From Pseudomonadota bacterium (GTDB taxonomy: Bacteria; Pseudomonadota; Alphaproteobacteria; UBA8366): a stretch of 45,694 bases of DNA. The notes beneath the pieces were generated by a model. That model had not been told where the DNA came from, ran no database searches, and saw only the letters and a list, made by a program, of their open reading frames with translations. A program made the position numbers and the translations under genes. Position 1 is the stretch's first letter. Each line of letters starts with the position of its first letter. The stretch covers positions 1-45,694 of the forward strand of contig JAYZAS010000016.1 in assembly GCA_036339585.1 (NCBI GenBank). The letters run 5' to 3'. This document shows positions 3,245-32,447 of the stretch, in pieces.

Positions 3245-4807
3245 TTATTTAATGGATTGAATAACAAGCTCAGGTGCTTTCGCTTTTTGTATTTGGCGTT
3301 CTTTCTCTAACTCCTCTCTTAACCCAATCGCACGCTTATAAAAACCGACTGCCTCTTTATAATCACCTAAATCAGTTAAAACTTTTGCTGCCTTTTCGCA
3401 GATTTCCGGAGAGTGCTGCCCAAATTCTACTGCCTTTCCCATAGCACCTTTAGCTTGGCTTTCTTCACCTTTAAGTAACAAAAGTTCTGCTATCTGAGCA
3501 TGGGCATCTGCATCTTTATCATCGATTAATATTACTTTGGTGAATGCCTGCAAAGCCTCCGCATGACGACTTGTTCGCCGATATAAGGTGCCGAGGTTGA
3601 CGAAAAAACTTGATTTAGTTCCATCGAGATTTATTGCGCGTTGCATCATCTTTTCAGCAACGTCAAATTGTTCAGCCTTAAAAGCTATGAGTCCAATTAG
3701 CTGCCACGCATCTGGATTTTCGGGGTATGATTGAAGGTATTTCTTTACTACTGACGTGGCCTCTTCAAAACGCCCTGTAAGGAAAAACTGTTGTGCTAAT
3801 GTAAGTGAGGACCTTTCTGTGCGTGGTTGTGTTGGCTGAACGTTATCATCATTCATCACGTCTGTAAGTTTTTGAAATTCTCGTACTATAGTCTCTGATT
3901 TATCTGTCTCCCAAACAAGCCGTTGCGTTGGGCTAGCGATGGATAAATCGGAGTTGGGTGTAAGGCCCATTGATGCCAACATTGCAAGGCTACTATTTTC
4001 TACATTGGAGGTGATCATCCGAAACATAATGTAGGAAGCGATTTCGCTCAGCCAGCATAAAACGCCGGGCCCATTGAGTACCAGCAAATTAGTTTGGCAT
4101 AATTCATAGAGCGCTAGGCGCAGGTCCAGGTTTACTTCGGCTTGGGGGCAATGGCTGAAGTCCTTTAAAAGTGGATTAATAATATTGAAAGAATTCTCTG
4201 TATCTCTCAAAATAATTGGATGAAAGCCGAGGCTTGATATTTTCTTTGCTGCTTTAGCCCATTCAACAATATTACTATTTCGTTCGGGTTTGTGACTGCT
4301 TTCTCGGAGTGTAATTGTTACAGGCCGAATCTCTGTGCCAAGGGAAGATAGCCATTGGGCCATGTAACTTTTCCCTTGCGCGGTTGCGCGGAGACGCGGA
4401 ATTTCTTCGCCTGTTGCTGCAGCGGCGGCTATTCCAGCCCAAAGGAAGTCCCCGCGAGGTGATTTTGGGTGATATTCCGGGGGGAAGATGTTTTCTGAAA
4501 GTAAATCGAATTGTTCATTTAGGTCGGAGCGTTGTCTGCATATTGTTAGACGCACTTGATTTGGCATCAACCAACATGCAGGAACAGCAATTTGTTCGAG
4601 GCGCCAAATTTTATTTGAGGTGTTAAAGGCTGCATCGTCATCGCGGAAACCCTCATTTGAGCCAGGCACAATGGTTATATGTAAATCTTTAAGTTTACGG
4701 CGGCGTTTTTCTAATTCAGCAAGAATTAAAAAATTAACGAAGTCGAAGGTAATCGGACATACCTCAAGGTCGTAGAACGCGTTGAGTGTTTGGCCCATGG
4801 TTTGCAT
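3245..4807 (-). CDS. Uncharacterised glycosyltransferase-like domain fused to C-terminal TPRs
   Basis: A 520-aa protein. Residues 1-320 form a domain I cannot name. It opens with AFYDLEVCPITFDFVNFL, then LHITIVPG..GFRDDD, then VTITLRESSHKPERNSN (163-179), PIILRDTENSF and LDLRLALYE..LLVLNGP (227-247). The alternating strands and helices, and the RES..NSN and DLRLA..E blocks, look like a GT-B-style nucleotide-sugar transferase, but this is inference. Residues about 337-500 are tetratricopeptide repeats (AWQLIGLIAFKAEQF, FFVNLGTLYRRTSRH). The same N-terminal domain recurs at 14495-17659. AAGG lies 6 nt upstream of the ATG. It is divergent from the methyltransferase gene at 4874, and no membrane segment is seen. 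A surface-glycan role is suggested only by context. Confidence 0.75.
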   Translation of the reverse strand: MQTMGQTLNAFYDLEVCPITFDFVNFLILAELEKRRRKLKDLHITIVPGSNEGFRDDDAAFNTSNKIWRLEQIAVPACWLMPNQVRLTICRQRSDLNEQFDLLSENIFPPEYHPKSPRGDFLWAGIAAAAATGEEIPRLRATAQGKSYMAQWLSSLGTEIRPVTITLRESSHKPERNSNIVEWAKAAKKISSLGFHPIILRDTENSFNIINPLLKDFSHCPQAEVNLDLRLALYELCQTNLLVLNGPGVLCWLSEIASYIMFRMITSNVENSSLAMLASMGLTPNSDLSIASPTQRLVWETDKSETIVREFQKLTDVMNDDNVQPTQPRTERSSLTLAQQFFLTGRFEEATSVVKKYLQSYPENPDAWQLIGLIAFKAEQFDVAEKMMQRAINLDGTKSSFFVNLGTLYRRTSRHAEALQAFTKVILIDDKDADAHAQIAELLLLKGEESQAKGAMGKAVEFGQHSPEICEKAAKVLTDLGDYKEAVGFYKRAIGLREELEKERQIQKAKAPELVIQSIK

Positions 4808-4873
4808 CGCATCCTTAATAGTTATTTATTAATATGCCTAGAAGAACTAGTCCATTAGAACAAAGAGTTTGCC

Positions 4874-5569
4874 ATGACTAATCCCAAAGCCCAATGGGAA
4901 AAAGTAACAGCACTGAATATCGATCAGAATCTTAAGCTTGGTCCGATCTATAGTTATTTTCTTCTAAAAGATCCGAAATGTTTCACATTTGTGCTTTCGC
5001 GGTACAAATTTGCGTCCAAAATGCTCAAGAATAAAAAACGTATCATTGAGGTTGGCTGCGGTGAGGGTATAGGTGCTTTAATGTTGGCGGGAGAGACCAA
5101 CGCACAAGTTGTAGGCTACGATTTTGATGAATCCCAGATAACATATGCACGGGAAAATTTATTAATACCATTTGAGGAGCAGAATCCACACGATCGAGGG
5201 CGCCTCTCCTACGAAGCGCGTGACTTTTCTAAAGACAGTGAGGCACAGAGTGCCTTCGATGGTTTGGTCTGTTTAGATGTAATCGAGCATCTCCCGAGGG
5301 GCGAGGAGGAGTTGGCATTTCTAAAAAATTGTAGAGGGTGTTTGAATGAAGGGGGAGTCGCAATTATTGGCACTCCCAGTTTGCATGCAAGTGACTATGC
5401 GTCGGAACGTAGCCAGATTGGGCACATCAATCTTTTCTCTCCTGATCGGCTCGTTCCAACTTTAGAGAATCATTTTAGCAATGTTTTTATGTTTTCAATG
5501 AACGACGAGGTTGTTCATACCGGTTTTGACAAAATGGCTCATTATTTGATTACATTATGTGTAGCATAG
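4874..5569 (+). CDS. Class I SAM-dependent methyltransferase
   Basis: A 231-aa protein with a Rossmann-type methyltransferase fold. Motif I is RIIEVGCGEGIG (57-67), followed by the acidic end of strand 2 (VGYDFDES), then GLVCLDVIEHLPRGEEE (motif IV/post-motif region) and a GGVAIIGTPS strand. Polysaccharide- and lipid-linked methyltransferases of the UbiE/Methyltransf_23 group look like this, but the substrate is not readable. Residues after PSLHASDYASERSQIGHINLFSPDRL are typical of methyltransferases in O-antigen clusters. AAAGAG about 7 nt upstream supports the start. It probably shares a 66-bp divergent promoter region with the TPR protein on the other strand. Confidence 0.87.
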   Translation: MTNPKAQWEKVTALNIDQNLKLGPIYSYFLLKDPKCFTFVLSRYKFASKMLKNKKRIIEVGCGEGIGALMLAGETNAQVVGYDFDESQITYARENLLIPFEEQNPHDRGRLSYEARDFSKDSEAQSAFDGLVCLDVIEHLPRGEEELAFLKNCRGCLNEGGVAIIGTPSLHASDYASERSQIGHINLFSPDRLVPTLENHFSNVFMFSMNDEVVHTGFDKMAHYLITLCVA

Positions 5570-5777
5570 ATCGTTTGTACAAAATAAGCGAAATAGAAGT
5601 CGCAATATAAACAGATTGATTTTCGGGAAATATTTTGGTTTCGAATTTTATGTACCGGTGAAGTAATAGGCTATATTAAGTTGAGAAGACGCTGAGTATG
5701 AAATCTCTAAAGTTTTAGGGGTTTTAGTTTTTTTGATATCTGACGAGGTTTTGGCTGCTTGTTGATGGAGAGGCTTT

Positions 5778-6905
5778 ATGCAGGAACGCGATAGTTATAA
5801 TATGGATGGTCACAAGTTGATGTGGCACCTAGATCGTGTCTCTCAGTGGCAGGCTGGAGAGAGAGTTGCGCCCCTCCACGTTGATATGGGTATAAGTGCC
5901 GGCTGTAATATGGCTTGCACCTACTGTTATGGTGTCATCCAAGGGCGGACAGGTTTCGGAACTGATATAAAAGGACGTTTCAACATGCCTGAAGCTGCAA
6001 TCTTGCGTTTCTTTAGAGACGCAAAAGATATTGGAATACGCTCAATTGCGTTAATAGGCGAGGGTGAAAACACTCTGAATCCAGCACTCTGCAGGTCGGT
6101 TGATTATGCAAAAAGGATCGGGCTTGATTTAGGTCTTGCCACCAATGGAATTCGAATACCGAGGGATCCAGTTGAGCTTGAAAGCCTTTTGACTGGTTTG
6201 ACGTGGCTAAGAATAAATATCAGTGCGGGCACTAAAGAGGCCTTCGAAAAAATACACCAAGTCCCACAATATGACCGTGTTTTGGATAATATTGATCGTA
6301 TGGTTAAAGCAAAGAAAAAATATGGTTATCCGTGCACAATTGGCTTGCAGATGGTGATGACCAAAGAAAATTTCGATCAGGTAGTTCCTCTTGCTGAGCT
6401 GGGTAATCAGCTTGATGCTGATTATTTTGTTATTAAGCCATGCTCTGATACGTCGGACTATAAACTCGATTCCCCAAAGGAAGAATACATAGATAATTGG
6501 GGCGTTTTCATGGAGGCAAAGAAATTCTCTAAGCCGGGTTATGAGGTTATACCAAAAGTCGTGAAGTTAGGGAATTTAGGTCATAAAGATTATAATGTCT
6601 GTTTCGGCACCCAATTCTTAATTGCTGTTAGTGGCACGGGCAACGTTTTTCCTTGCGGTCATTGGTTCGATGTGCGCCAAGAGGAATTTTTAATGGGCAA
6701 TATTATTGAACAATCATTTAAAGAAATCTTTGAGTCAGAACGGTATTGGGAAGTGCAGCAGCGTGTGCAAGCGGTAAACGTCAACAAAGATTGTGAGAGC
6801 AATTGCCGGCAACATTATTTGAATAGATTTCTGTCAGATCTTAATGGCCAGCCGAGAAACCTCAAAGAGCCGGATTTTACCCCGCAGCATGTAAACTTTA
6901 TTTAG
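5778..6905 (+). CDS. Radical SAM protein with SPASM-like C-terminus
   Basis: A 375-aa radical SAM enzyme. The 4Fe-4S/SAM site is C43-x3-C47-x2-C50 in SAGCNMACTYC, followed by the family's GEGENTLNP glycine-rich strand and an ATNGI strand. The C-terminal third has Cys residues in CFGTQFLIAVSGTGNVFPCGHW and DCESNCRQHYL, resembling a SPASM/twitch auxiliary cluster domain that often marks enzymes acting on peptides or complex glycans. GGAGAGG at 5767-5773 gives a strong ribosome site. It lies between a methyltransferase and a C-methyltransferase-like gene in the glycan island; the substrate is unknown. It is not closely similar to the paralogue pair at 9171 and 13165. Confidence 0.88.
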   Translation: MQERDSYNMDGHKLMWHLDRVSQWQAGERVAPLHVDMGISAGCNMACTYCYGVIQGRTGFGTDIKGRFNMPEAAILRFFRDAKDIGIRSIALIGEGENTLNPALCRSVDYAKRIGLDLGLATNGIRIPRDPVELESLLTGLTWLRINISAGTKEAFEKIHQVPQYDRVLDNIDRMVKAKKKYGYPCTIGLQMVMTKENFDQVVPLAELGNQLDADYFVIKPCSDTSDYKLDSPKEEYIDNWGVFMEAKKFSKPGYEVIPKVVKLGNLGHKDYNVCFGTQFLIAVSGTGNVFPCGHWFDVRQEEFLMGNIIEQSFKEIFESERYWEVQQRVQAVNVNKDCESNCRQHYLNRFLSDLNGQPRNLKEPDFTPQHVNFI

Positions 6906-6917
6906 TCAGTCTTAAGT

Positions 6918-8111
6918 CTAAAAAAATTGAACAGGAGTTGTAATGTATGCGGGGCCAAAATCCCGCAGGCGTCTAGTGATGGGGCGAACTGCATCCAATG
7001 CGGTTATTATCACTGTCGCATCATGAATATCGTTAATTTCCTCCGGTCGTTTTATGCGCACTGGGATATGAGGGTATGTAAGGCCAGGTCGAAATTTACA
7101 GTCATCAAGTATACCATTCAAAAATGCGAGATTGCTCTCCATATGATATGCAAGCGTTGGTAGCATTTGGGCTGCCCCATAGGCGTACACAGGGCCCTCA
7201 AGGGCCACAATGGTGTGGGTAAAGTCTAACATTTTTCGCTTGAATAAGTTGAATTGCTTTTTAACTCTCTCTGCGGTGACAGCCTTAGTCTGCGGCACTT
7301 TTACGCCATTAGGTTTTTTTGTAAATGCTACAGCGATAGTACCGCCCCAGTTTCCTGGATGGATCCGGTGGCTGAAATAATAACCACCTGCCTCTTCCAA
7401 CATTTTGAGGAAGGTCGAAATATTGAAATAATGAATGTGCTGGTGAAAAACTTGATCAAATCGAAGATTGCGAACCATGATTTCGCTGTCGGGTACTTCA
7501 ATCAGAAATATTGAATCATCGTCTGCGGCATCCAAAAGGCGGCGAATTTGCAACACTGGTTCCTCGATATGTTCAAGATTATGGGTTGAGATTACGATGT
7601 CTGGAGCGATAGTGAGTTCCTTTGATAGCTGAACTTTTTCTAAATAATTTCCAATCACTCTCATATTTGCAGCTTTTTCAGGATCATCTTCTTTCCCGAT
7701 CCAGATAGGGTCTATGCCGACAACCTGGTCTGCCATTTTTGACAATTTTGTGAGGAGCATAAGATCGTTGCATCCAATTTCTAAAATTGATCGAAAGCGT
7801 TGGTCTGGTCTCAGTTCATTCAAATATTTAAGGACATCGGAAAATGCAGTAGGGGTGATATGGCTCGCGCTTGAGCGATGCGTGTAATCATCACCGTACA
7901 GTTGTGCCGGCGGAATAATATGAGATAATTGCATGTGCAAGCAATCGCAACACATCAGTAGGGTCTGGTCAAAACCTTGTATAGGTCCTGGGACGCTTTC
8001 ACTCACAAAAACCCCGGTAATTGGAAAATTTGGCAGCTTTATGACTGCTTCAAGGCTCTTACTTCCGCATATTCCGCAGCGATAGTTTTCTCTGATTTTA
8101 GTGTTGGACAT
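6918..8111 (-). CDS. SAM-dependent C-methyltransferase-like sugar-modifying enzyme
   Basis: A 397-aa protein with the three-part build of sugar C-methyltransferases (TylCIII/NovU type). The N-terminal zinc-binding module has C12-x2-C15 and C54/C55/C57. The central SAM domain has SILEIGCNDLMLL and STHNLEHIEEPVLQIRRLL. The C-terminal domain contains VYAYGAAQMLPTLAYH and a VIITALDAV strand near the end. Such enzymes usually methylate C-3 or C-5 of NDP-4-keto-6-deoxysugars, although in surface-polysaccharide loci many relatives have untested roles. It starts 5 nt after the stop of the RmlD-like gene at 8117-8956, so the two are co-transcribed. CAGG about 8 nt upstream of the ATG is a weak ribosome site. 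Confidence 0.87.
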   Translation of the reverse strand: MSNTKIRENYRCGICGSKSLEAVIKLPNFPITGVFVSESVPGPIQGFDQTLLMCCDCLHMQLSHIIPPAQLYGDDYTHRSSASHITPTAFSDVLKYLNELRPDQRFRSILEIGCNDLMLLTKLSKMADQVVGIDPIWIGKEDDPEKAANMRVIGNYLEKVQLSKELTIAPDIVISTHNLEHIEEPVLQIRRLLDAADDDSIFLIEVPDSEIMVRNLRFDQVFHQHIHYFNISTFLKMLEEAGGYYFSHRIHPGNWGGTIAVAFTKKPNGVKVPQTKAVTAERVKKQFNLFKRKMLDFTHTIVALEGPVYAYGAAQMLPTLAYHMESNLAFLNGILDDCKFRPGLTYPHIPVRIKRPEEINDIHDATVIITALDAVRPITRRLRDFGPAYITTPVQFF

Positions 8112-8116
8112 TTAAC

Positions 8117-8956
8117 TTACCTGTAGATTTTTGAATATTCTTGCAAAGCTTCTTGCCATGGTCGGAGTGCAGGCCGTTTTTCTGAAGAAATAGCAAGGCG
8201 GAGTGGTTTTGGTGGTCTCGCTATAAACTCTTTATCCTTTGCAGCTTCTATGCCGCTCGGGCTATTCAAAATTTTTGCCAATTTAGCAATGAAATCGAAA
8301 TAGCTGACAGCACCGTGATTAGCGACATGATAAAGGCCGAAGTTAGCGCGACTAACAACTATTTCGGCCACTTCGTGTGCGGCGTCTTCCGACCACGTTG
8401 GGCAATCCATGCGATCATCAGCGATCCTAAGAGGATCACCAGCTATTAATTTTGTGATCATTTTCTCAACAAAACCAGATTTTTCATTGCGTCGATGGCC
8501 AAAAAGAGTTGGAAAACGTACTACATAACTTTTAGGATTTCGAGTTAGTGCATAATGCTCGCTTACAAGCTTGGTTGCCGCATACACAGTGTTTGGCGAT
8601 GGAAGGTCGTACTCGGTATAGGGTTGGTGACTTTTACCGTCGAAAACCAGATGCGTGCTGGTCTGAACTAGTGCGATCTTTTTTTCTGCTGTCGCTTCAG
8701 CAAGGGATAGCGCAGCTTGCGCATTCACTTTATACGCATCTAATGGAGATGTTTCGCATTCACCTATGTCTATAATTCCAGTGGAATTAACGACAGCATC
8801 TGGTGCTTCTGCCGAAAGCGCGCAGGATATCTTCTGAGGTTGCGTTACATCTAATTCCGAGTGGCTAGGAGCAATACATTCTATCCCCCGCATTCTGCAT
8901 ATTTTTTCGAATGCAGTACCAAACTGACCGCGGTTTCCGAGTAATAAGATTTTCAT
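8117..8956 (-). CDS. RmlD-like NDP-sugar reductase (dTDP-4-dehydrorhamnose reductase family)
   Basis: A 279-aa extended SDR of the RmlD substrate-binding family. The N-terminus MKILLLGNRGQFG carries the NAD(P)H-binding glycine motif. VNSTGIIDIGECE, STHLVFDGKSHQPYTE and the catalytic Y-x3-K (YAATKLVSE) are conserved family blocks, as is the late GLYHVANHGAVSYFDF segment. RmlD reduces dTDP-4-keto-L-rhamnose; the nearby C-methyltransferase-like gene suggests a different 4-keto sugar may be the substrate here. I start at ATG 8956, which has GAGGAAAG about 8 nt upstream, rather than at 8995. It is the first gene of a two-gene minus-strand unit. No rmlA, rmlB or rmlC gene is in the window. Confidence 0.86.
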   Translation of the reverse strand: MKILLLGNRGQFGTAFEKICRMRGIECIAPSHSELDVTQPQKISCALSAEAPDAVVNSTGIIDIGECETSPLDAYKVNAQAALSLAEATAEKKIALVQTSTHLVFDGKSHQPYTEYDLPSPNTVYAATKLVSEHYALTRNPKSYVVRFPTLFGHRRNEKSGFVEKMITKLIAGDPLRIADDRMDCPTWSEDAAHEVAEIVVSRANFGLYHVANHGAVSYFDFIAKLAKILNSPSGIEAAKDKEFIARPPKPLRLAISSEKRPALRPWQEALQEYSKIYR

Positions 8957-9170
8957 GGAGCTTTCCTCTACCAAATAACCTTCTGTAGTATGCATACAAA
9001 ATTTTATATAGATCCTCCTACTTGGTGTGAAATTTGCAAGCTTTAATACAGTTTCGTCGGGACATTAAAAGGGTAACCTATTCAGGTTGCTCTTCTCCCC
9101 GTTGCGGATCTGGTGCCTATCGGCTGCCAAGGTGGCTATTTATCGATCAATAAGCCGGAGACAACTGCAT

Positions 9171-11174
9171 ATGTCATATCAAAATGTTGCAGAAATAATC
9201 ACTGAAACGGATAGCAATAGGACCGCCGACCTCTGTGGTTCGACCGAAGAAAAAACTGAAAGAGAGATGGTTTCTGAGATAACATCAAGCTCTAGTGAAA
9301 TTGACCGAATAGCCAAGGCGCGGGAGTATTTAGAAAAGGGTATTTTAGACAAAGCATTTCATTTGATGACTGAGATTATTAAAGCGTCATTGGAACCTGA
9401 TACGTTAATAAAAGCAGCGATCATTTCTCTTGAGTTAGGGCAGATCAAGCTTTCTCTCAAAGCACTCGATAAAGCCCGTGAACAAGGGCGAGGTATTTCG
9501 ACTGAATACGAAGAAATCGCAAAGCCTCTTTACCAATGGTTTGGCAGCGAAAAAAAATGCGTGGACTACTGCGTAAATCAACACAACATACTTTTGAAGA
9601 AGCTTCCAAGCCTTGCCGAAACTTATTGTGTGATTGGTATTTTCGCAGCTGAGTGTGATTACGTGCGCTTAGCCCTTAAGAATCTTGAAACCGCACAATT
9701 CATAGACTCAGATGTTTTCAATAATTTTGACCTGCCTAAGGACACCATTGCGGCCCATTTGATTGACTGTATCTTAAGCATCCGCAAAAACCCCTATTTG
9801 ACGGATTTGGCAAGGGAAACCCCAGCTTTTCAGCAGCCACAGCTACCTATCTTTGAGGTGATTAACCCTCCTGAGTTAAATTATCGAGATCAGGATGCAC
9901 ATCTGGCAATCGCACATTTATATGGTCAGGCTGCTGATGACATTGTTCAATGGGCAATGACTGCTCAAAATCTTTATGCATCAGCCGCCATAAGGGAGGC
10001 CATCACGGCGTTTGAGCGGGTGGTCGAATTACAACCTAATAATGATTTGGCGACCCGTGCTCTATGGCACTTGCCAAAATTAGATAATTCGGAACTCGAC
10101 CGATTATTGTCTGTTCGGTTCGACGCTCATAAAATGGAGCGGTTGCGGGAAAAGTACTATGCTGCGCGGCAAGCAGACTTTTACTACAACATTGATATTG
10201 TTGGTACTTGTAATCTACGGTGCCCCTCATGCCCTGTTGGAAACTTTGATGATAGTGGGATTCCAAAGGGATTTATGGACCTGAATAAATATGAGAAGAT
10301 CTTAGCGAAGATAAAAAAATCTCATGATCCATGTGTTAGTATAGCGATAGATATACATAACTGGGGGGAATCGCTGCTCCATCCAAAGTTGCCCGAATTC
10401 ATAAAAAAAACCCGTGAATATGGCTTCCTTGTCGGTTTGTCTAGCAATTTGAACCATAATTTGAGCCGAAAAAAGCTAGAGGAAATTATCCGGGCGGAGC
10501 CAGATGCCCTGAGAATATCGCTGTCGGGATTTAGCAATGAAACTCATATGCAAACTCATACCCGTGGTGACATCAATATTGTAAAATCGAATATGCATCT
10601 GTTGCGTCATGTCTTAGACCGGACCAAATCGAAAACGGCAATTGAAATTGGGTATATGGTATACAAGCATAATTTTTCAGATGATTTCGTGCGAATGCGT
10701 CTATTGGCAGAAGAACTTGATTTTCATTTCGATTGGATCTTCGCTGTTTACATGCCAGTCGAAAAAACCATCACAGCCATTCGCGGAGAATATGACCAAG
10801 CTGATAAAGAAATTTTCGAAAATTTACCTGTAGATCCCCGTGAATGGAAAGAGCTGGTTGATGCGTCAGGTGCCTTCCGCAAGAATGTTCCGGGTGAATG
10901 CCACTTAAAAAAGCATAGAATGGCAATTAACTTTGACGGTACAGTTCCTATTTGCTGCGCGTCGTATTCTTACGACAATATTACAGTTAAAGATTTTCTT
11001 GAAGTATCGCACGATGACATACAGAAATGCCGCTCCGATCACAGTCTTTGTGGAGATTGTATGGAGTCAAACGCCTATTTCTTTTATTCAGGTGTTCACC
11101 CAGAAATGGGTGAAAGGAAAGCATATGAGACACTATCTGAAAAAGGTGCGTTTGTTGGGAAAGATGGCCGTTGA
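9171..11174 (+). CDS. TPR-like N-terminus fused to radical SAM/SPASM enzyme
   Basis: A 667-aa fusion. Residues about 35-330 are helical and TPR-like (AREYLEKGILDKAFHLMTEI; AITAFERVVELQPNNDLATRAL). The C-terminal half is a radical SAM domain with C347-x3-C351-x2-C354 (TCNLRCPSCPVGN), then HNWGESLLHPKLPEF, LSSNLNHNL and ISLSGFSNETHMQTH. A SPASM-like tail has CHLKKHRMAINFDGTVPICC and CGDCM and ends in GAFVGKDGR. The same radical SAM module recurs at 13165-14343. ATG 9171 is chosen because GGAG at 9157-9160 precedes it; the open frame upstream begins only with a TTG. It is 42 nt upstream of the OGT-like gene, probably in one operon. TPRs may dock a protein substrate (inference). Confidence 0.85.
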   Translation: MSYQNVAEIITETDSNRTADLCGSTEEKTEREMVSEITSSSSEIDRIAKAREYLEKGILDKAFHLMTEIIKASLEPDTLIKAAIISLELGQIKLSLKALDKAREQGRGISTEYEEIAKPLYQWFGSEKKCVDYCVNQHNILLKKLPSLAETYCVIGIFAAECDYVRLALKNLETAQFIDSDVFNNFDLPKDTIAAHLIDCILSIRKNPYLTDLARETPAFQQPQLPIFEVINPPELNYRDQDAHLAIAHLYGQAADDIVQWAMTAQNLYASAAIREAITAFERVVELQPNNDLATRALWHLPKLDNSELDRLLSVRFDAHKMERLREKYYAARQADFYYNIDIVGTCNLRCPSCPVGNFDDSGIPKGFMDLNKYEKILAKIKKSHDPCVSIAIDIHNWGESLLHPKLPEFIKKTREYGFLVGLSSNLNHNLSRKKLEEIIRAEPDALRISLSGFSNETHMQTHTRGDINIVKSNMHLLRHVLDRTKSKTAIEIGYMVYKHNFSDDFVRMRLLAEELDFHFDWIFAVYMPVEKTITAIRGEYDQADKEIFENLPVDPREWKELVDASGAFRKNVPGECHLKKHRMAINFDGTVPICCASYSYDNITVKDFLEVSHDDIQKCRSDHSLCGDCMESNAYFFYSGVHPEMGERKAYETLSEKGAFVGKDGR

Positions 11175-11216
11175 TCTCATAAAAAAAATGCTCACAATGC
11201 CGCGCGAGCAATTTAT

Positions 11217-13028
11217 ATGAATGATCAGCTTTCAAAAATAGAATCGGCTATAAAATATCAGAAAGCAGGAAAACTTGATGTCGCAGAGGTTTTGTTGCTG
11301 GACGTTCTATCATCTGAACCAAGTCAGGCCCAAGCGCTATTGTTGATTGGATTAATTTATCTGCAAAAGCAGCACCCAACAAAAGCAGAAGGCTATTTCG
11401 AAAAGATTTGTACTCAACAACCTCAGAACACAGATTCGCTTGCATTAAGATTTTGGTTTGATTCACTCTTAATGCAAGGAAAGTTTTCAGCCGCTTGCTT
11501 TGTACTAAAAAGGCATGCGACTCAGGGCAATGACTTATCATATTTTCACGACAAGTTAGTTGGTGTTCTCGCTACGCTTTTACATCAGGGGAATATTGAA
11601 GTAGCCCTTAATGGAGCAAAGCATTTTCTTGCTATGCAAGATTCGGAATTGGATGCACTTCGATTTCGTATTGCATATGCTGTTCTTACTCGTGGTTTCC
11701 ATAGTGAGGGTATGGATTTACTCGAGCCTCTCATTAAGAGGCCTGAGGCGTCTCCTGAAGCATTATATTTTCACTTTGCCGAGACCTCATTGCGGTCTCC
11801 AGAGCAATCAAATCATTTTTCCGGATTAGAAAATCTCCAAAAGTATAATTACGGCGTTGTGCCGGACTTTGACTATGCGACTGTTAAAAAAGCGAAGGAC
11901 AGACGACTGCGCATTGGTTTTTTGCCGCTTGAATTAGTTGACGCAAATACATTGCTCTACATCTGGGGGGCATGGTTTTACGGCTATGATAAAAATAATT
12001 TCGAATTATTTGGGTATATTGACGGCGACGTTTGCTTTGGCACTGTTTCTGATTTTACGGATGTTTTTGATCACCAATATCAAATTTCTAACCTTACTGA
12101 TGAGGAAGTTCTATCTAAGGTGAGAGAGGATAAAATTGATATTCTTATTCATCTAGGGGCAATCGGCGATCGTCCTCGCGTGCGGGTGTATGCAGGCCGA
12201 GCTGCTCCAATCCAAGTCGAGGCCGCGAGTTTACCTTTAGGGACCAGTGAATTTGATTATTTCTGGTTTGATCGCAGTGTTGTTCCAAAGGAAACCTTCC
12301 ATGCGTACGATGGCGCTATGGTGTTGGCTGATGGGCCATATTTTTGTTGGACGTCCCCAAGTAATGGTAAGAATGTGTCAGACTTGCCATTCGATAGCCA
12401 GGGCTTCATAACTTTTGGTAGCCTCAATAGATTCGTAAAAGTTACGCCGCTTTGTTTAGAGGCCTGGTCCGATGTGTTGGCATCCGTGCCCAATTCTCGA
12501 TTGATCCTAAAAGGAGGCCAATTTGATGAAACCCTAATTCAACAGAGGGTTTTGTCTTTTTTCTCTAAAAAGAATATTGCAGCTGACCGTCTATCTTTCT
12601 TCGGTCAAACCGACCAGACTTCACACTTAGATATTTATCATAAAATTGATATAGCACTCGACACGATACCTGAGCAGGGGGGGTGTACCACTCTGGAAGC
12701 TCTCTGCCATGGAGTTCCAGTTATAAATTGGTGTTACGATAATAGGATAGTATCTCGAACAGGCAGAACGATTTATGAAGCAATTAATCTTGAAGAGTTT
12801 TCAACAAATTCAGTTGAAGAATATATAAATCTGGCAACGAGCCTTGCTAAGAAACCGCATACGCTTCGTAAGTTAAGGAAAAAATTACCGTCAAAAACAG
12901 AGTGTTCTCGTCTTTGTGATGCGGACCATTTTTCGCGCACGGTGCAGATAGGACTAAAAAAAATGTGGGAGTTATTCTGTGAAGGTTCTAGTGTCTCGGT
13001 TTTAGATTTGGCTGATAAGAGCCTTTGA
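11217..13028 (+). CDS. TPR protein with O-GlcNAc transferase-like (GT41) domain
   Basis: A 603-aa protein. Residues about 1-200 form degenerate TPRs (AIKYQKAGKLDVAEVLLLDVL; AQALLLIGLIYLQKQHPTKAEGYF). Residues about 225-600 match the GT41/SPINDLY catalytic region: LRIGFLPLEL, DILIHLGAIGDRPRVRVYAGRAAPIQVE, then ITFGSLNRFVKVTPLCLEAWSDVLASVPNSRLILK and ALDTIPEQGGCTTLEALCHGVPVI (around residue 488), the UDP-sugar-binding loop. Eukaryotic OGT adds GlcNAc to Ser/Thr; bacterial relatives modify proteins or surface structures, and the donor is often unknown. It is downstream of, and probably co-transcribed with, the TPR-radical SAM gene. An AT-rich terminator follows at 13030-13063. Confidence 0.88.
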   Translation: MNDQLSKIESAIKYQKAGKLDVAEVLLLDVLSSEPSQAQALLLIGLIYLQKQHPTKAEGYFEKICTQQPQNTDSLALRFWFDSLLMQGKFSAACFVLKRHATQGNDLSYFHDKLVGVLATLLHQGNIEVALNGAKHFLAMQDSELDALRFRIAYAVLTRGFHSEGMDLLEPLIKRPEASPEALYFHFAETSLRSPEQSNHFSGLENLQKYNYGVVPDFDYATVKKAKDRRLRIGFLPLELVDANTLLYIWGAWFYGYDKNNFELFGYIDGDVCFGTVSDFTDVFDHQYQISNLTDEEVLSKVREDKIDILIHLGAIGDRPRVRVYAGRAAPIQVEAASLPLGTSEFDYFWFDRSVVPKETFHAYDGAMVLADGPYFCWTSPSNGKNVSDLPFDSQGFITFGSLNRFVKVTPLCLEAWSDVLASVPNSRLILKGGQFDETLIQQRVLSFFSKKNIAADRLSFFGQTDQTSHLDIYHKIDIALDTIPEQGGCTTLEALCHGVPVINWCYDNRIVSRTGRTIYEAINLEEFSTNSVEEYINLATSLAKKPHTLRKLRKKLPSKTECSRLCDADHFSRTVQIGLKKMWELFCEGSSVSVLDLADKSL

Positions 13029-13029
13029 A

Positions 13030-13063
13030 TCCTAAATATCAATTCATTTAGGAAATTTTTTAT
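13030..13063 (+). terminator. Intrinsic terminator after the OGT-like gene
   Basis: Perfect 8-bp inverted repeat TCCTAAAT (13030-13037) / ATTTAGGA (13046-13053) with an 8-nt loop, followed by AATTTTTTAT. It lies 1 nt after the stop codon. The stem is AT-rich and therefore weak, but its position and T-tract are right. Confidence 0.6.
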
Positions 13064-13164
13064 ACCTTTCGCAAATACCCTTAAATTGCAGTTAATAAAT
13101 GAATGCCATCTCTTGTCCTATAACCGTGTTACGGACTGCAAATATTCAACGTGCTGCGGTTGTC

Positions 13165-14343
13165 TTAACGTCCATTTTTTCCCGTAAACGTTCCTAATTT
13201 GCTTAATTCTTTATACGCATAATCATCTACTTCGGGCGGTCTCACACATGTAAACATATGGTCAACCATGTTTTCCATACACTTTGCGCACAGATCGTTT
13301 TCATATTTCTTTTTCTGTAAATCATTATGCGAGATTTTTAAAAAGTCTTGCGCAATATAATTTTCAGGTAAATATGTACCGCAACACAAAGGTACTGATT
13401 TATCGAAGTTTATCACTGTGCGATTGGGCCTCATATCACATTCTTTGAAGTAATCGCGATATTGCAGTGTTAGCTCCTTCCACTTGGCAGGATTGATGAC
13501 TAGTAAATCATTAATTTTTTCTACATTCTTTGGTATTTTCCCTTCGGCTATTTTGATTGCAGTCTCGACCGGCATCATTACTGAAAATGTCCAATTGAAA
13601 GAAAAATGTAATTGATCGCATAGATGTTTGATCGCTATGAAATCCTCATCAAAATTATGACGGTAAACTAAATAACCAATTTCTACCTTTGTGACGTCAA
13701 GTCCGTAGCTATCCATAGTAGCGCGAAGTAAATGTAGATTAGCTTTAACATTATTAACATCGCCACCTCTGTGGGTCTGTTGATAGGTTTCGTTCTTAAA
13801 ACCTGATATCGACACTCTTAAATAGTCGGGCTTTGCCTTGACTAATCCACGCATATCCCGAACGTGATTCAAATTGTTCGAGAGGCCGCAGATGAATCCT
13901 CGGTTTTTGACTGCTGCTATAAATTTTGGCAAGTCAGGGTGTAATGCCGACTCTCCCCAATTGTAGAGCTCAATTGATGTACGCGCGCCTGGGCTTTCAA
14001 TTTTAATTTTGTCTAATACCTCTTCAAAAGTCTCGATGCTCATCATTCCCTTGGGGGTTGGAGCATCAGCAGAGTTCCCGACCGGGCATGAAGGGCATTG
14101 GACTGAGCACGTACCTACGATATCGATGTTATAATAATAGTCAGCTGCTCGCGCTACCGCATAATCATCGGCTAACTTATGTTGTAACTCGGTATTAAAT
14201 TTTTCTGCTTGGATTTGGTTTTCAGATATATATTGGCGAAGGATTTGATTTTCACGAGAGAGATTTTTTTGCGTTTCAGTAAGGGCAGAAATCTTTTTTT
14301 GAATTTCTGCAAACAAATTCTGTTCTTGCTGTCTCATCTGCAT
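13165..14343 (-). CDS. Coiled-coil radical SAM/SPASM enzyme, paralogue of the 9171-11174 protein
   Basis: A 392-aa radical SAM protein. Residues about 5-58 are Gln/Glu/Lys-rich and predicted to form a coiled coil. The radical SAM site is C79-x3-C83-x2-C86 (TCSVQCPSCPVGN). It shares long blocks with the C-terminal half of the 9171 protein: YYNIDIVGT, YNWGESALHPDLP, SNNLNHV, VSISGFKNETYQQTH, EIGYLVYRHNF, a CCGTY..CAKCM SPASM-like tail and a final FTGKNGR. ATG 14343 is chosen because GGTG lies about 7 nt upstream; a TTG at 14355 is the only longer option. It sits inverted, on the far side of the OGT-like gene, and is divergent from the 1054-aa protein. The substrate is unknown. Confidence 0.86.
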   Translation of the reverse strand: MQMRQQEQNLFAEIQKKISALTETQKNLSRENQILRQYISENQIQAEKFNTELQHKLADDYAVARAADYYYNIDIVGTCSVQCPSCPVGNSADAPTPKGMMSIETFEEVLDKIKIESPGARTSIELYNWGESALHPDLPKFIAAVKNRGFICGLSNNLNHVRDMRGLVKAKPDYLRVSISGFKNETYQQTHRGGDVNNVKANLHLLRATMDSYGLDVTKVEIGYLVYRHNFDEDFIAIKHLCDQLHFSFNWTFSVMMPVETAIKIAEGKIPKNVEKINDLLVINPAKWKELTLQYRDYFKECDMRPNRTVINFDKSVPLCCGTYLPENYIAQDFLKISHNDLQKKKYENDLCAKCMENMVDHMFTCVRPPEVDDYAYKELSKLGTFTGKNGR

Positions 14344-14494
14344 CTGAATCACCAAATAGCTATTTTACAGGTTGCAACCATGCAAAAAGCATTCCATCAT
14401 GTAATCAAGAGCGAATGATTTTTCAATCACGGTTCTTACTATCATTTTTAAGATCGATATACTTTAGTCATGCCTCAGGTTAAGGCTTGGTCAC

Positions 14495-17400
14495 ATGAAA
14501 AATATTCAAAATAGCAACAGTGTTCTTTACGCCTTTTACGATTTGCAAATATGCACTGTGACCTTTGACTTCTTAAGCTTTCTTCTTCGCGCAGAAATGC
14601 ATCGCATTCAAAGTAACTTTAAATCATTACATATAGTATTTGTCCCGGGGGACGATGACGGTTTTCGTATGATGCATTTGACAGGTGATGTTAGTCGTTG
14701 GCGATTACAAAATATGCATATAGCTGCTTGCTCCTTCCTTTCTTCGATTGAAGGAATCACAGTTTGCCCCACACGGGCACAGGCAACTTCTATAGAGGAT
14801 AATTTAGCATCGAATATCTTTCCGGTTGATTACACCACGCACATTTTTGACTCGCAAAAAGCTATTCAGGCGTCAATTGATGCATTTATGTTTGCTGGGG
14901 TTGTTATCAGGCACTTAAAAGGCGATGAAGTCCCAGTTTTAACTCCGACGCTCCGAGCACAACAATATGTTAGGGAGTGGTATGAGAAACATGCAAACGG
15001 GCGCAAGGTAATTGCTATCACTTTACGGGAGTCGCCTAATGATCCTGCTCGCAATAGTAACCTTGATGCTTGGGCACGCTTTGCAGCGACCATTGATGAA
15101 AATGAATTTCTTCCCGTTATAATTCGTGACACAGATGCAGTATTTTTACCTGTTCCTGAAGAATTGAAGGGCTTGTGCCATTTTAATGAGGCAGCGATTG
15201 ACCTAGACCTGCGCCTAGCATTTTACGAGTCCGCATTTCTCAACATGTTGGTTAACAATGGTCCGTTACAGATTTGCTACCTTAATCCAAAAATTCGATA
15301 TCTAGCCTACAAGATGTTTAATGCAACAAACGAAGCAGATGAGAGAGCAACATGTGGTGTTTATGGTATCCCTATTGGTGGCCAGTTACCCATGGCAACA
15401 CCATTTCAGCGAATAATATGGAATGATGATTGTTACGAGACATTGGTGGATTCTTTCGCAAATGCTTCTTGCGCCGTAAACTATGCAATAGAGCGCGGTG
15501 ATTTGGACAAAATCGAAAATCGACCAATATTTGGACGCGACGAAAGTTATCGTTTTGCTGTAACCTTGCATCAGGTAGGTAGATGTACGCACGCTTTGGA
15601 TATCTACGATCACCTTTTGTCTCTTGATCAAGATGATTTTGATGCCGCTGTGATGCGAGGCCTAGCACTTCTTCATCTTGCACGCCCCACGGAAGCGAAA
15701 AAAGCTTTAAAATTTTGTTTAGATCGTCAACCCCATTCGCCGCAGTGCATTTTCAACTTGGCACTTGCAGAAAAATCTTTGGGGAATGCCACCGTGGCGT
15801 TAGATTTGTTAGAAAATTTAAGAAAATCTGATTGTAAATTAAATGGCATATCAGGCCTTCTTGCTAAACTGTACCTCTCACAGGGACACATTAGTAAAGC
15901 TGCGGATGAATTTGCGATTGAGGTTGAAAGGGATCGTTCGAACTGGCGAGCAAAGCTGGATTTAGCATCTTGTCATGAGAGGTTAGGAAAGAATAAGACG
16001 GCTGCAAGGATGTACAATTCTTTTGTAGTATCACACAAAAAGCAGAAACAGAAGTTAGATGAGGCAAAGGAAACCTTATTTCCAAGACGAAGGACCATAT
16101 TAAAGGGACGGCATAAGCACCTCGTACTGCCCTTAGTTGGTTCTACGCAAACAATGGAGATCTGGGAAAACGAATTTGGAAAGCCTAAGGAATTAAATCA
16201 ACCGGTTGTCTTTGTTGAGTATGATTTAGAAAAAAATGATGATTTGGAATGTGAAGATCCGCTTGAAAACTTTGTGAAGTTTGCGAGTGGTGTACCTGAA
16301 CAGCCCAATCATATTTGTATTGTTCCAAAAAACATAAAGAGTATGTCGGTAGGTGGGCATATTCCATTGCAATTGGTAATGAAGTGGATTCCTTTGGTGC
16401 GCAAGAACAGGGGGTTTTCTTTCTTTATATGCCGCAATAGAGCCTTGGAATTTTTAGCTATCCAAAATAATACAAATAGTCAGTCGCTGGTGAATGACGA
16501 GAGCTATCAACAACCGGCAATGTTGCCGCCCTTTGAGAGGAAACAGAAATTTCCTATGAAGGCAACTATACAAGCTGCAGCCTACATTAATGTGTGGAGA
16601 TCTTCGCAAGGTGAAAATTTAGCTTTAACGGTTATACTTTTGGGCTCTGAATCTTCTCAGAGATTAATCAAAGATGATGCATACGGAGACAAATTTCTAA
16701 GGTTGATAAGAGATAATAGGCAGGCTGGGTCAAAAACTGCTTTAGTGATACCGTTTGATAGTTGTGCCATTTTTTCCACAACGGAGGCTTATAAATTTGG
16801 CATCCATTTACCGGCGTCTTTGCATTTTGATTTGCAGTTAGCCTTGGTAGAGGCTGCAAACACAGTGTACTGCCTGGACTGTGTGCCCATTCAATATCAC
16901 GAATGTATTCGCGAGGTTCACGATGTTGAATCCTTGCTAGGGAAAACCGGACACGAGAATAATATTTCTGTAAATCACTTGCCGGGCGCAAATAAAACTG
17001 AATTGAAGATAGACGCAGCATTTAAATTAGGCGTTCGTTTATTCTGTGGTGGAATTACAACATTCAACAAGGGGGTGCAGGTATTTCAGCAGATCCTCCG
17101 AGTGACTCCCGACCATGCAAATACAATAGGAATGCTGGGTGTCGCGGCTAACATATTTCGAAAACATTCTGATGCAATTGATCTTTTTGAGAATGCGATA
17201 GCCCTTAAAAGAGATGAGCCTGCTTTCCTTTTTAATTTGGGAATTGCGCTTTATGAAGAGGGGAATCTCCAAGAAGCTATAAAAGCATTTGAAACCTCAG
17301 CCACCCAAGATCCGATACTTTATGAGCCTTGGGACTATATGGGAGACGCATATAGAAAAATGGGAAAGCTTGAAAAAGCAATATGTTCCTATGGAAAAGG

Positions 17401-17659
17401 AATATCTTTAGGAGGCAAGAGTTTTGATACTTTTGTTCGACTAGCTAACTGTCACGAAATTTTGGGTAATGTCTCATTGGCGTTAGAAAATTATAGGGCT
17501 GCGGGAGAGGTGGTAAGAAAATTTGATGATAAGGAGCAAGCCTGCACAACGATGATCTGGCCATGGAGACCAAAACTTATCCGACCTGAAGATGGTGAAT
17601 TCATAGGTGGCTATCTTGATCCCCAAATACCTAGTGTGCCCGAATCTCCTTTGTCGTAA
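14495..17659 (+). CDS. Large uncharacterised protein: two glycosyltransferase-like domains alternating with TPRs
   Basis: A 1054-aa protein. Residues 1-340 match the N-terminal domain of the 3245-4807 protein: YAFYDLQICTVTFDFLSFL, LHIVFVPG..GFR, VIAITLRESPNDPARNSN (about 171-188), PVIIRDTDAVF and LDLRLAFYE..MLVNNGP (about 235-256). TPRs follow (about 348-520). Residues about 535-830 look like a decayed second copy: LTVILLGS at about 705 and FDLQLALVEAANTVYCLDCVP at about 777 align with the ITLRES and LDLRLAFYE blocks but lack the RES..NSN residues. A second TPR set runs from about 842 to 1030. No signal peptide or membrane segment is evident. It is upstream of the TPR-GT9-like gene (84-nt gap) on the same strand. 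Function is unknown; glycan transfer is inference. Confidence 0.78.
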   Translation: MKNIQNSNSVLYAFYDLQICTVTFDFLSFLLRAEMHRIQSNFKSLHIVFVPGDDDGFRMMHLTGDVSRWRLQNMHIAACSFLSSIEGITVCPTRAQATSIEDNLASNIFPVDYTTHIFDSQKAIQASIDAFMFAGVVIRHLKGDEVPVLTPTLRAQQYVREWYEKHANGRKVIAITLRESPNDPARNSNLDAWARFAATIDENEFLPVIIRDTDAVFLPVPEELKGLCHFNEAAIDLDLRLAFYESAFLNMLVNNGPLQICYLNPKIRYLAYKMFNATNEADERATCGVYGIPIGGQLPMATPFQRIIWNDDCYETLVDSFANASCAVNYAIERGDLDKIENRPIFGRDESYRFAVTLHQVGRCTHALDIYDHLLSLDQDDFDAAVMRGLALLHLARPTEAKKALKFCLDRQPHSPQCIFNLALAEKSLGNATVALDLLENLRKSDCKLNGISGLLAKLYLSQGHISKAADEFAIEVERDRSNWRAKLDLASCHERLGKNKTAARMYNSFVVSHKKQKQKLDEAKETLFPRRRTILKGRHKHLVLPLVGSTQTMEIWENEFGKPKELNQPVVFVEYDLEKNDDLECEDPLENFVKFASGVPEQPNHICIVPKNIKSMSVGGHIPLQLVMKWIPLVRKNRGFSFFICRNRALEFLAIQNNTNSQSLVNDESYQQPAMLPPFERKQKFPMKATIQAAAYINVWRSSQGENLALTVILLGSESSQRLIKDDAYGDKFLRLIRDNRQAGSKTALVIPFDSCAIFSTTEAYKFGIHLPASLHFDLQLALVEAANTVYCLDCVPIQYHECIREVHDVESLLGKTGHENNISVNHLPGANKTELKIDAAFKLGVRLFCGGITTFNKGVQVFQQILRVTPDHANTIGMLGVAANIFRKHSDAIDLFENAIALKRDEPAFLFNLGIALYEEGNLQEAIKAFETSATQDPILYEPWDYMGDAYRKMGKLEKAICSYGKGISLGGKSFDTFVRLANCHEILGNVSLALENYRAAGEVVRKFDDKEQACTTMIWPWRPKLIRPEDGEFIGGYLDPQIPSVPESPLS

Positions 17660-17743
17660 TTTTATCTTTGCAAATTGGGAAAGCCTCTACGTTGATTAAA
17701 GATTACAGTAAAGGTTAATCTTCAATTGGGAATAGGTGCGTTT

Positions 17744-19255
17744 GTGACTTCAGATATTATGAATGCCGCGGTTAAATTACACCAATCGGGTGACTTCAAT
17801 GCTGCGCGAAAGCTTTACGAATCCATTCTTAATCTGGATGTACACAATACGGATGCACTCAACCTTTTAGGGCTTGTCAATCACCAACTCAAAGATAATG
17901 AGCAGGCATTAATTTACATAGAAAAAGCAATCGTTCTTAATCCAGATATTCCGGAATATTCAAATAATTTGGGACTAGTGCTCAGTACGCTTGGACGGTT
18001 GGATGAAGCAGAATCCGCATATTTATGCGCACTATCTCAGGCTCCTGAATACGCCGATGCTCATTATAATCTCGGCCTTCTAGAGAATAAGCGTAGTCGT
18101 TACCAAGTGGCTCTTAGACACTTCCAGAAATGTCAATTGTATGCTCCGTGGCACGCGAAAGTTCGCAATGGTCTTGCACTCGCTTTGATGCGTTTGGACC
18201 GTATTCCGGAAGCACTGAAAGAAATTGAAGAACAGATAGAAAAAGACTCTGAGGATGTTGACGCGTATAATAACTTATGTGTAGCAAGAGGATTGAGAGG
18301 TGAATATGCTTTGGCACGTGAGGCCACGGCAAGGGCTCTTGAATTGAATCCTGAGCATGTTTACGCGCGTGTTAATCGTGCACAACTTTTGCTTTTAGAT
18401 GGTGATTTCATAAATGGCTTTGCAGAACATGAATGGCGTCTGCAGAGAAAAGACTACCGGCAAAAATTTAGTGTGCCATTTTGGGAGGGTGAATGTCGGC
18501 CTAATGAGACAATCATTCTGTGGGCGGAGCAGGGTCATGGCGACGCGATTCAATTCATCCGTTATGCTCAGTTAGTGAAAGAGCGAGTGGGCAGGGTCGT
18601 GATAAGCTGTCGTCAGTCGCTTCTAAGGCTTTTTTCATGCGTTGACGGTGTGGACGAAGTTACAGTGGGTGATAAACCCTTGCATGCCGATTGCCATGCG
18701 CCATTAATGAGCTTACCGTACATTTTTAAAACGCAATTGCAAACGATACCCTCTCAAGTCCCATATATTTCAGTGAAAAAAAAATGTCGTTTTCCCGCAA
18801 ACACTCAGGTACTGAAGGTCGGTCTCGTTTGGGCCGGAAACCCGGATCATGCACGCGATCATAGGCGAAGCCTACCACTTCAGGCATTTGAGCCAATCTT
18901 CTCTATCTCAGGCGTTACATTCTTTAGTTTTCAAATGGGGGCCGCTGCCGAGCAACTTTCAGATATTAAGACACCGTTACTAAATATAAGCGATGGGTTC
19001 GATGATTTTTATGATACCGCATGCGCACTCTCCAACGTGGATCTTTTGATCACCGTAGACACATCGGTTGCTCATTTAGCTGGGGCGCTGGGTGTACCGA
19101 CTTGGGTGATACTTGATTGTGTACCCGACTGGCGGTGGCAATTAGAACGTGAGGACACACCATGGTATCCAAGTCTGCGTTTATTTCGTTCTAGGGGCGA
19201 ATTTAGTGAACTAATGGGCCGCATAGCAAAAGCCTTGGTTGATTTGGCGTGCTAA
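17744..19255 (+). CDS. TPR protein with C-terminal GT9-like glycosyltransferase domain
   Basis: About 503 aa. The first 230 residues are clear TPRs (ALNLLGLVNHQLKDNEQAL; SNNLGLVLSTLGRLDEAE; AHYNLGLLENKRSRYQVAL). The C-terminal half has WAEQGHGDAIQFIRY, LKVGLVWAGNPDHARDHRRS, FFSFQMG and the DLLITVDTSVAHLAGALGVPTWVIL block shared with heptosyltransferase-like (GT9-fold) domains in bacterial TPR proteins. The start is ambiguous: TTG 17726, GTG 17744 and ATG 17759 are in frame. I prefer GTG 17744, which has AATAGG about 7 nt upstream. Substrates are unknown; relatives occur in glycan and flagellar-glycosylation loci. It is followed after 59 nt by the B12-type radical SAM gene. Confidence 0.85.
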   Translation: MTSDIMNAAVKLHQSGDFNAARKLYESILNLDVHNTDALNLLGLVNHQLKDNEQALIYIEKAIVLNPDIPEYSNNLGLVLSTLGRLDEAESAYLCALSQAPEYADAHYNLGLLENKRSRYQVALRHFQKCQLYAPWHAKVRNGLALALMRLDRIPEALKEIEEQIEKDSEDVDAYNNLCVARGLRGEYALAREATARALELNPEHVYARVNRAQLLLLDGDFINGFAEHEWRLQRKDYRQKFSVPFWEGECRPNETIILWAEQGHGDAIQFIRYAQLVKERVGRVVISCRQSLLRLFSCVDGVDEVTVGDKPLHADCHAPLMSLPYIFKTQLQTIPSQVPYISVKKKCRFPANTQVLKVGLVWAGNPDHARDHRRSLPLQAFEPIFSISGVTFFSFQMGAAAEQLSDIKTPLLNISDGFDDFYDTACALSNVDLLITVDTSVAHLAGALGVPTWVILDCVPDWRWQLEREDTPWYPSLRLFRSRGEFSELMGRIAKALVDLAC

Positions 19256-19314
19256 TTGCAGTGTGATCGGATAAAACCTAGAAGCCTATCCTTTTTGAAC
19301 GAGTTTTTAGCAGA

Positions 19315-20895: not shown

Positions 20896-20912
20896 CGCCC
20901 TTAGACCGCTTT
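20889..20912. terminator. Possible weak bidirectional terminator between convergent genes
   Basis: Short stem GGCCTAA (20889-20895) / TTAGACC (20901-20907) with one G-U pair, lying across both stop codons. Pyrimidine-rich CTTTCTTTCC follows on the plus strand and TTTCC on the minus strand. The stem is short and the U-tracts poor. Confidence 0.3.
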
Positions 20913-29088: not shown

Positions 29089-29097
29089 CAAATAAAT

Positions 29098-30006: not shown

Positions 30007-30009
30007 CTT

Positions 30010-32381: not shown

Positions 32382-32394
32382 AAAGCCATAAAGC

Positions 32395-32425: not shown

Positions 32426-32447
32426 CTAGTTAGGTTTAGTGCCTTAT

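Follow-up and report, generated by a model that had tools for sequence, protein, structure and literature searches.

Twitch-like radical SAM paralogues beside a TPR-GT41 gene as candidate sugar-tailoring enzymes of a putative glycosylation island

What task do two paralogous radical S-adenosylmethionine (SAM) enzymes have on either side of a gene for a glycosyltransferase of the OGT/SPINDLY type? The locus that raises this question lies on contig JAYZAS010000016.1, which in its entire length of 45,694 bases is the window analyzed here and which belongs to the 2.79-Mb genome of a marine bacterium, alphaproteobacterial to judge by its named Rhodospirillaceae relatives. The two enzymes, named A and B in the following, and the GT41 gene between them form the middle of a 20-kb island of 13 open reading frames (ORFs; 3245-23065), and we hold the chances to be about even that A and B are sugar-tailoring enzymes of a cytoplasmic protein glycosylation system that is encoded by this island and guided by tetratricopeptide repeats (TPRs). 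A preliminary description of the locus had taken the trio as the unit; the trio itself is as described, and the unit is larger.

Two radical SAM paralogues around a GT41 gene

A on the plus strand and B on the minus strand are indeed paralogues that flank a TPR-GT41 gene, as the preliminary description had it (A, ORF 9087-11174 with ATG at 9171; B, ORF 13165-14355 with ATG at 14343):

9171..11174, plus strand: rSAM_A (A), with TPR-like helical N-terminus, radical SAM core, and four-cysteine twitch-like C-terminus
11217..13028, plus strand: TPR-GT41 of the OGT/SPINDLY type
13165..14343, minus strand: rSAM_B (B), with probable coiled-coil N-terminus, radical SAM core, and twitch-like C-terminus

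A and B share 41% identity over 411 aligned columns (E = 3e-111), and every motif of the shared module that had been named, i.e., CxxxCPSCPVGN, WGES..HP, SGF.NET..TH, GY.VY.HNF, and GKxGR, is invariant between them. In a tree of 25 rows, they form one clade (bootstrap 98, Shimodaira-Hasegawa-like approximate likelihood ratio test [SH-aLRT] 92); of the three distant outgroup rows of this tree, all on long branches, two group together, for which the program gave a warning. A search of the source genome with B (E ≤ 0.001) retrieved just A, B, and the protein encoded at 5778-6905.

Membership in the radical SAM superfamily is clear. PF04055 (cut-off, 29.5 bits) is matched by A with 35.5 bits and by B with 37.4 bits, and CX3CX2C is invariant in 19/19 members of an alignment that omits one truncated sequence of Deltaproteobacteria bacterium Smac51. 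In A, an N-terminal part (residues ~1 to 330) is followed by the core with CNLRCPSC at residues 347 to 354 and by the cysteines C577, C595/596, C627, and C630. The C-terminal pattern C-x17-CC-x30-CxxC is common to A and B, and four of its cysteines are invariant in 19/19 members, with the second Cys of the CC pair not being universal. SPASM domains have a seven-cysteine motif and two auxiliary clusters, and the twitch domain is a truncated form with ligands for one (PMC6231123). Since four rather than seven C-terminal cysteines are invariant, the C-termini of A and B are, judged by sequence, a twitch-like domain and not the SPASM domain of the preliminary description, of which the radical SAM assignment stands. 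A has the twitch signature CX12GX4C-gap-CX2C, and B has the same cysteines with Lys replacing Gly. Furthermore, PF13186 (SPASM) scored 20.1 bits in A against a cut-off of 21.5 and was absent from the matches of B listed with E ≤ 0.01. The coiled coil that had been claimed for B is plausible at its N-terminus (residues ~1 to 55) from the heptad count, with the leucine-zipper model TSC22 reaching 18.6 of the 30 bits of its cut-off.

The product of the gene between A and B (11217-13028) was also correctly described as OGT-like with TPRs. It has the GT41 domain and the N-terminal TPR of OGT and SPINDLY (PF13844, 72.5 bits versus a cut-off of 25; TPR_14, 25.4 versus 23.5; no further TPR model reached its cut-off), and its closest solved structures are SPINDLY (4e-40) and the bacterial TPR protein 5djs (3.7e-37). 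SPINDLY is inactive without K665 (PMC9715652). In the alignment, K408 corresponds to this lysine and N404 to N661, whereas Cys490 replaces T748 and Glu486 replaces Y744 (positions counted by hand). Because the former two residues are kept and the latter two replaced, the product looks like an active transferase that probably uses another donor than SPINDLY does. It is one of six GT41 ORFs in the source genome.

Distribution and relatives of the subfamily

At a threshold of 1e-20, the strict subfamily of A and B is found in 5 of 385 genomes of the class; among genomes of the phylum, 12 of 398 matched at 1e-15, five of them better than 1e-30. A profile of 19 members matched 30 of the 385 class genomes, with a gap between 1e-115 (five genomes) and the next match at 4e-36. 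Thirteen strict lineages were distinguished: the own genus, G123, G228, G306, G373, G452, G473, G550, and G587 (G numbers designate genomes), plus four records, i.e., a Methylococcales metagenome-assembled genome, a viral contig, a Methylocystis plasmid, and the Smac51 plasmid. Seven weak phylum genomes (E from 5e-20 to 7e-16) were excluded from this count, including G493, whose stretch was read and contained no GT41 gene. A looser tier comprises 20 loci, drawn from the 28 profile matches that lie neither in the source genome nor in the four strict class genomes.

Co-occurrence of the subfamily with GT41, which the preliminary description had anticipated, turned out not to be general. In stretches of ~13 to 40 kb (several contigs, i.e., G473 with 12.9 kb, G344, G292, and G316, being so short that a more distant GT41 gene may have been missed), GT41 was present in two of the 13 strict lineages, the own genus and G306, and near the radical SAM gene in 3 of the 20 looser loci; a GT41 gene ~10 kb past the last radical SAM copy of G452 was counted as not near. 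Anywhere in the genome, GT41 was found in 4/5 strict class genomes versus 90/240 (p ~0.07, binomial calculated by hand), a weak enrichment. With these numbers, a link between subfamily and GT41 is rejected for the family; it stays for the TPR-fused forms alone, which adjoin GT41 genes in the own genus and in G306. Clear sugar genes, on the other hand, adjoin in 7 of the 13 lineages (own genus, G306, G123, G373, G587, Methylocystis, and Smac51). In this sorting, which is our own reading of the neighborhoods, the sugar context was weak in G452 and G473, absent among the few neighbors tested in G228 and G550, and unannotated for the Methylococcales genome and the viral contig. A shared preference of both kinds of gene for glycan islands could explain part of their proximity.

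Several members occur in more than one copy: G452 has three neighboring ones (C12:23000-42900), and six subfamily sites are found on the 65-kb plasmid of Smac51. On plasmid pAB510f of Azospirillum sp. B510, reported apart from the lineage counts, a TPR gene, a radical SAM/SPASM gene (25% identity), and a GT41 gene follow each other consecutively, which may be the TPR fusion in split form. Among mobile records, one viral contig and one weak phage record were retrieved, and plasmid records numbered eight with A and three with B as the query. A viral or mobile origin was rejected, with no sign of a phage system.

Within the genus, the island is present in all three genomes examined, one of which (G421) is without B. 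At E ≤ 1e-15, the radical SAM gene is found in 3/43 genomes of the order, with none in the 8 other genomes of the family and none in the 32 other genomes of the order. In G421 the matching stretches that flank the B site are ~110 bases apart, and no second copy was found in this genome, which is 84% complete. The G421 homologue of the neighboring 14495-17659 protein is 81 to 96% identical over residues 1 to 300 and then abruptly 27 to 64%. Because B is absent and this homologue diverges past residue 300, B and the remainder of the 14495 gene (13165-17659) look like a cassette that varies between species, as far as one genome pair indicates.

A profile search of solved structures yielded 15 matches, which include 8wm2 (AbmM), a glycerol dialkyl glycerol tetraether synthase, BtrN, BlsE, 7wzv (SpeY), and DesII; TYW1-type proteins and 5wgg, a sactipeptide enzyme, are among them as well. 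BtrN, SpeY, BlsE, AbmM, and DesII are radical SAM enzymes of the sugar, cyclitol, or nucleoside type. The similarity to BtrN (E = 9e-9) extends over 76 profile positions. BtrN has the same four-cysteine twitch arrangement as A and B, the four cysteines being aligned with those of BtrN in a second stretch of 1.9 bits. For BtrN, SpeY, BlsE, AbmM, and DesII alike, good alignment is limited to the first part of the core, and in contrast to these enzymes, A and B carry TPR-like or coiled-coil N-terminal parts and sit in a glycosyltransferase island. The N-terminal part of distant subfamily members weakly matches nucleotide-sugar-handling proteins (4m9c, E = 6e-4; 3nkl, E = 1.3e-3); for the G228 and G373 members, searches with the N-domain found nothing in Pfam at E ≤ 1 or in the PDB at E ≤ 0.1. 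BtrN is a twitch dehydrogenase (PMC6231123).

The island, its possible acceptor, and competing explanations

Besides the trio, the island comprises the following ORFs:

3245..4807, minus strand: 520-aa protein, N-domain of unassigned family plus TPRs; paralogue of the first half of the 14495-17659 protein
4874..5569, plus strand: class I methyltransferase
5778..6905, plus strand: third radical SAM protein, PF13186 (SPASM) above cut-off
6918..8111, minus strand: methyltransferase with sugar C-methyltransferase architecture (Methyltransf_13/23/14)
8117..8995, minus strand: RmlD-like reductase (PF04321, 5.4e-59)
14495..17659, plus strand: 1054-aa protein, N-domain of unassigned family, TPRs, a second part, and further TPRs
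17726..19255, plus strand: TPR-glycosyltransferase with weak GT9-like C-terminus
19315..20895, plus strand: B12-binding radical SAM enzyme (PF02310, 7.2e-23; PF04055, 1.2e-22; best NCBIfam model far below cut-off)
20901..21488, minus strand: GmhA-like SIS isomerase
21485..23065, minus strand: HldE-like enzyme in swapped order, nucleotidyltransferase first and PfkB kinase second

Four TPR proteins besides A and two radical SAM genes besides A and B are present. The third radical SAM protein is distant from A (23% identity over 212 columns). The proteins encoded at 3245-4807 and 14495-17659 are 30% identical over 481 columns, and their N-domain was not modeled with confidence (predicted local distance difference test [pLDDT] 52.8). 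In the 17726 protein the TPRs are clear and the GT9-like part is weak (TIGR02193, E = 0.0026).

Which sugar could be handled? By their sequences, the HldE-like and GmhA-like enzymes are relatives of the ADP-heptose pathway enzymes, below equivalog level. An HldE homologue with the kinase domain first is encoded elsewhere in the source genome (contig C4), and the island copies may therefore be a second, dedicated set. In the sister lineage G123, HldE-like (49% identity) and GmhA-like (46%) genes lie 2 to 4 kb from the radical SAM gene, with no GT41 gene adjoining. The swapped-order enzyme next to a GmhA-like gene is likewise found there, and the two genes perhaps represent a separate heptose-type nucleotide-sugar pathway.

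Which acceptor could receive the sugar? FlmG of Caulobacter, a soluble transferase, glycosylates flagellin, to which it binds by way of its TPRs (PMC7591256; the term "radical SAM" does not occur in this paper). FlmG combines a TPR N-terminus with a GT-B C-terminus, and in the 17726 protein TPRs are accompanied by a C-terminus with weak GT9 similarity; FlmG uses pseudaminic acid, whereas the sugar genes of the island are of the heptose type and flagellin genes are not close by. The flagellin locus of the source genome (contig C19) encodes FlgK, a further Flagellin_N protein, two flagellins, FlbT, FlaF, a DegT aminotransferase, two TPR-GT41 proteins, and two TPR proteins of the 17726 type. The latter two share 32% identity with 17726 (490 and 562 aligned columns), and one of them matches GT9 (PF01075, 6.6e-7). 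Because FlmG acts on flagellin and 17726-type genes are found in this flagellin locus, a protein is, by analogy, a likely acceptor for the TPR-transferases of the island, with flagellin as a candidate.

A telling connection to flagellin is seen in G306. Its contig encodes, in this order, a flagellin (PF00669, 1.3e-33), a GT41 protein, a hexapeptide transferase, a DegT aminotransferase, two TylF methyltransferases, and a TPR-radical SAM protein, followed by four more GT41 proteins (five in total) and a second hexapeptide transferase; ORFs upstream resemble FlhF, FlhA, FliG, FliF, FlgE, and FlgD by eye. The TPR fusion is well supported (TPR_19, 55.3 versus 25 bits, 8e-15), and the radical SAM core is 40% identical to that of A over 308 columns. 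Two of the five GT41 proteins have TPRs by Pfam, and for the other three TPRs were recognized from BLAST matches to TPR parts. Within the family of G306, the radical SAM gene occurs in 1 of 11 genomes, G306 itself. Its protein is not part of the clade that unites A, B, and the G123 protein (97/95), in a tree that leaves its own position and 12 of the 22 inner branches open. The TPR part of A has no significant similarity to the TPRs of other window proteins or to the G306 stretch. Given this tree position and the dissimilar N-termini, the TPR fusions of A and of the G306 protein likely arose separately.

In our model, the GmhA-like isomerase and the swapped HldE-like enzyme would produce a nucleotide-activated heptose-type sugar, which would be modified by the RmlD-like reductase, the methyltransferases, the B12-radical SAM enzyme, and A and B, the latter two by hydrogen abstraction leading to, e.g., oxidation, epimerization, or deoxygenation. 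The TPR-glycosyltransferases 11217 and 17726, and perhaps the 14495 and 3245 proteins, would bind the acceptor protein by their TPRs and attach the sugar, and A may, through its TPR-like part, be held at this acceptor or at one of the TPR-transferases. We infer the identity of the sugar, the reaction, the timing of A and B relative to transfer, and the protein nature of the acceptor. For the order of events in the preliminary description, glycosylation followed by radical modification, nothing was found; since the solved relatives include sugar- and nucleoside-type enzymes and G123 has heptose genes without GT41, modification of the sugar ahead of its transfer is at least as good a fit.

A number of findings weigh against this model, in addition to the small share of lineages with GT41. 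No flagellin or other acceptor was recognized within the window, the flagellin genes of the source genome being on contig C19 and not on that of the island. The HldE-like gene reached 181.9 bits against an equivalog cut-off of 521 and the GmhA-like gene (TIGR00441) 102.9 against 209.45. The fusion of A to TPRs, part of the preliminary description, is reflected by helices with TPR spacing at residues 43 to 104 of a low-confidence AlphaFold2 model; its single TPR_2 match stays below the Pfam cut-off (24.5 versus 27 bits), and the mean pLDDT of the model is 56, with the core better and the remainder poor. The N-terminus of one distant subfamily member, searched alone, had no match among solved structures. 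Structure comparison gave a tie of SuiB, BlsE, anSME, ChlB, and MoaA among the matches listed (Z 15.2 to 15.5), with lower scores for BtrN (13.7), AbmM (13.1), and SpeY (11.1), and Foldseek places DesII, anSME, viperin, and BlsE together. Because sugar and peptide enzymes score level, at low TM-scores across the whole model of A, the fold comparison was not used for the choice of a substrate. Furthermore, in this group of radical SAM enzymes function cannot be predicted from sequence clusters (PMC6231123). Finally, some members lie in what look like ordinary surface-polysaccharide loci, e.g., that of Methylocystis among MurJ- and O-antigen-ligase-type genes.

Such a locus is also the alternative that survives best, and we regard it as possible, though clearly less probable than the model of protein glycosylation. 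A and B would then tailor a nucleotide sugar or a lipid-linked O-antigen or capsule glycan, and the TPRs would just hold the enzymes together, with no protein being glycosylated. Of the 11 strict lineages in which no GT41 gene is near, five (G123, G373, G587, Methylocystis, and Smac51) have the radical SAM gene clearly among nucleotide-sugar or polysaccharide genes, and on a plasmid of Brachyspira hyodysenteriae, a block of several radical SAM genes adjoins glycosyltransferase, epimerase, and rhamnose-type (rfbC) genes (PMC4267127). This block resembles the island in gene content, and a TPR fusion is not mentioned in the available part of that paper. However, none of the 13 island ORFs, two of which have unassigned N-domains, matches a flippase, polymerase, or ligase family, the transferases of the island have TPRs like the protein-acting GT41 enzymes and FlmG, and G306 connects the same design to flagellin.

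It is unlikely, in our estimate, that A is a post-transfer glycan editor that is aimed by its TPRs as FlmG is and acts on flagellin or a different surface protein, editing either the sugar bound to it or the polypeptide. This estimate takes in a small share of the preferred model, with A acting after transfer, and the improbable case of TPR-guided radical editing proper, in which A would dock on a glycosylated or unglycosylated protein and alter the attached sugar or a side chain, with B carrying out a second step with a partner bound by its coiled coil. The radical SAM core is fused to TPRs or TPR-like helices in the own genus (below cut-off) and in G306 (above), each time next to GT41 genes, and the G123 protein has a possible C-terminal TPR (17.8 versus 27 bits). 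Speaking against radical editing are the dissimilarity of the TPR part of A described above and the members without recognized TPRs that also sit in sugar loci; docking and activity of A and B are putative.

That A and B are maturases of ribosomally synthesized and post-translationally modified peptides or of metalloenzymes, placed in the island by chance, is very improbable: the tungsten-enzyme maturase model W_rSAM_matur is their best NCBIfam match but far below cut-off (A, 58.9; B, 51.2; cut-off, 380), and the peptide-acting SuiB, anSME, and ChlB share the top range of structural scores, yet inspection of the small ORFs in the three gaps adjoining A and B by eye gave no convincing precursor, the sugar-gene context recurs, and the C-termini have four rather than seven cysteines, although the sactipeptide enzyme SkfB is also a twitch protein (PMC6231123).

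TPR-guided transferases, twitch radical SAM enzymes, and radical SAM genes in surface-sugar loci are each known already. In a literature survey by titles and beginnings of abstracts, with subscription journals mostly outside its coverage, neither a TPR-radical SAM fusion nor a radical SAM enzyme in flagellin glycosylation was described among the papers listed; judged on this basis, what would be new is the fusion and pairing of these elements. TPR-guided glycosyltransferases choose which cytoplasmic proteins receive a sugar, and a radical SAM enzyme with a TPR guide would, if the model is true, extend protein glycosylation to chemistry at unactivated carbons. A more modest reading is of value too: A and B are uncharacterized twitch-like enzymes, and their context of heptose-type genes and TPR-transferases makes the substrate testable.

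Other features of the window

Promoter-like sites (6 versus 15.0 in shuffles) and terminator-like sites (5 versus 4.9) were not in excess. To its left, the island is bordered by a gene that resembles a DNA glycosylase by eye (2326-3156). On its other side, the stretch 27245-33158 contains a rhodopsin gene (PF01036) with neighbors that resemble Blh, CrtY, CrtB, CrtI, and CrtE and is, by eye, a proteorhodopsin-carotenoid cassette. Farther on, at 39500-41564, a sulfotransferase gene (PF00685) is followed by a gene for a rhodanese-domain protein (PF00581) that resembles tRNA 2-selenouridine synthase by eye.

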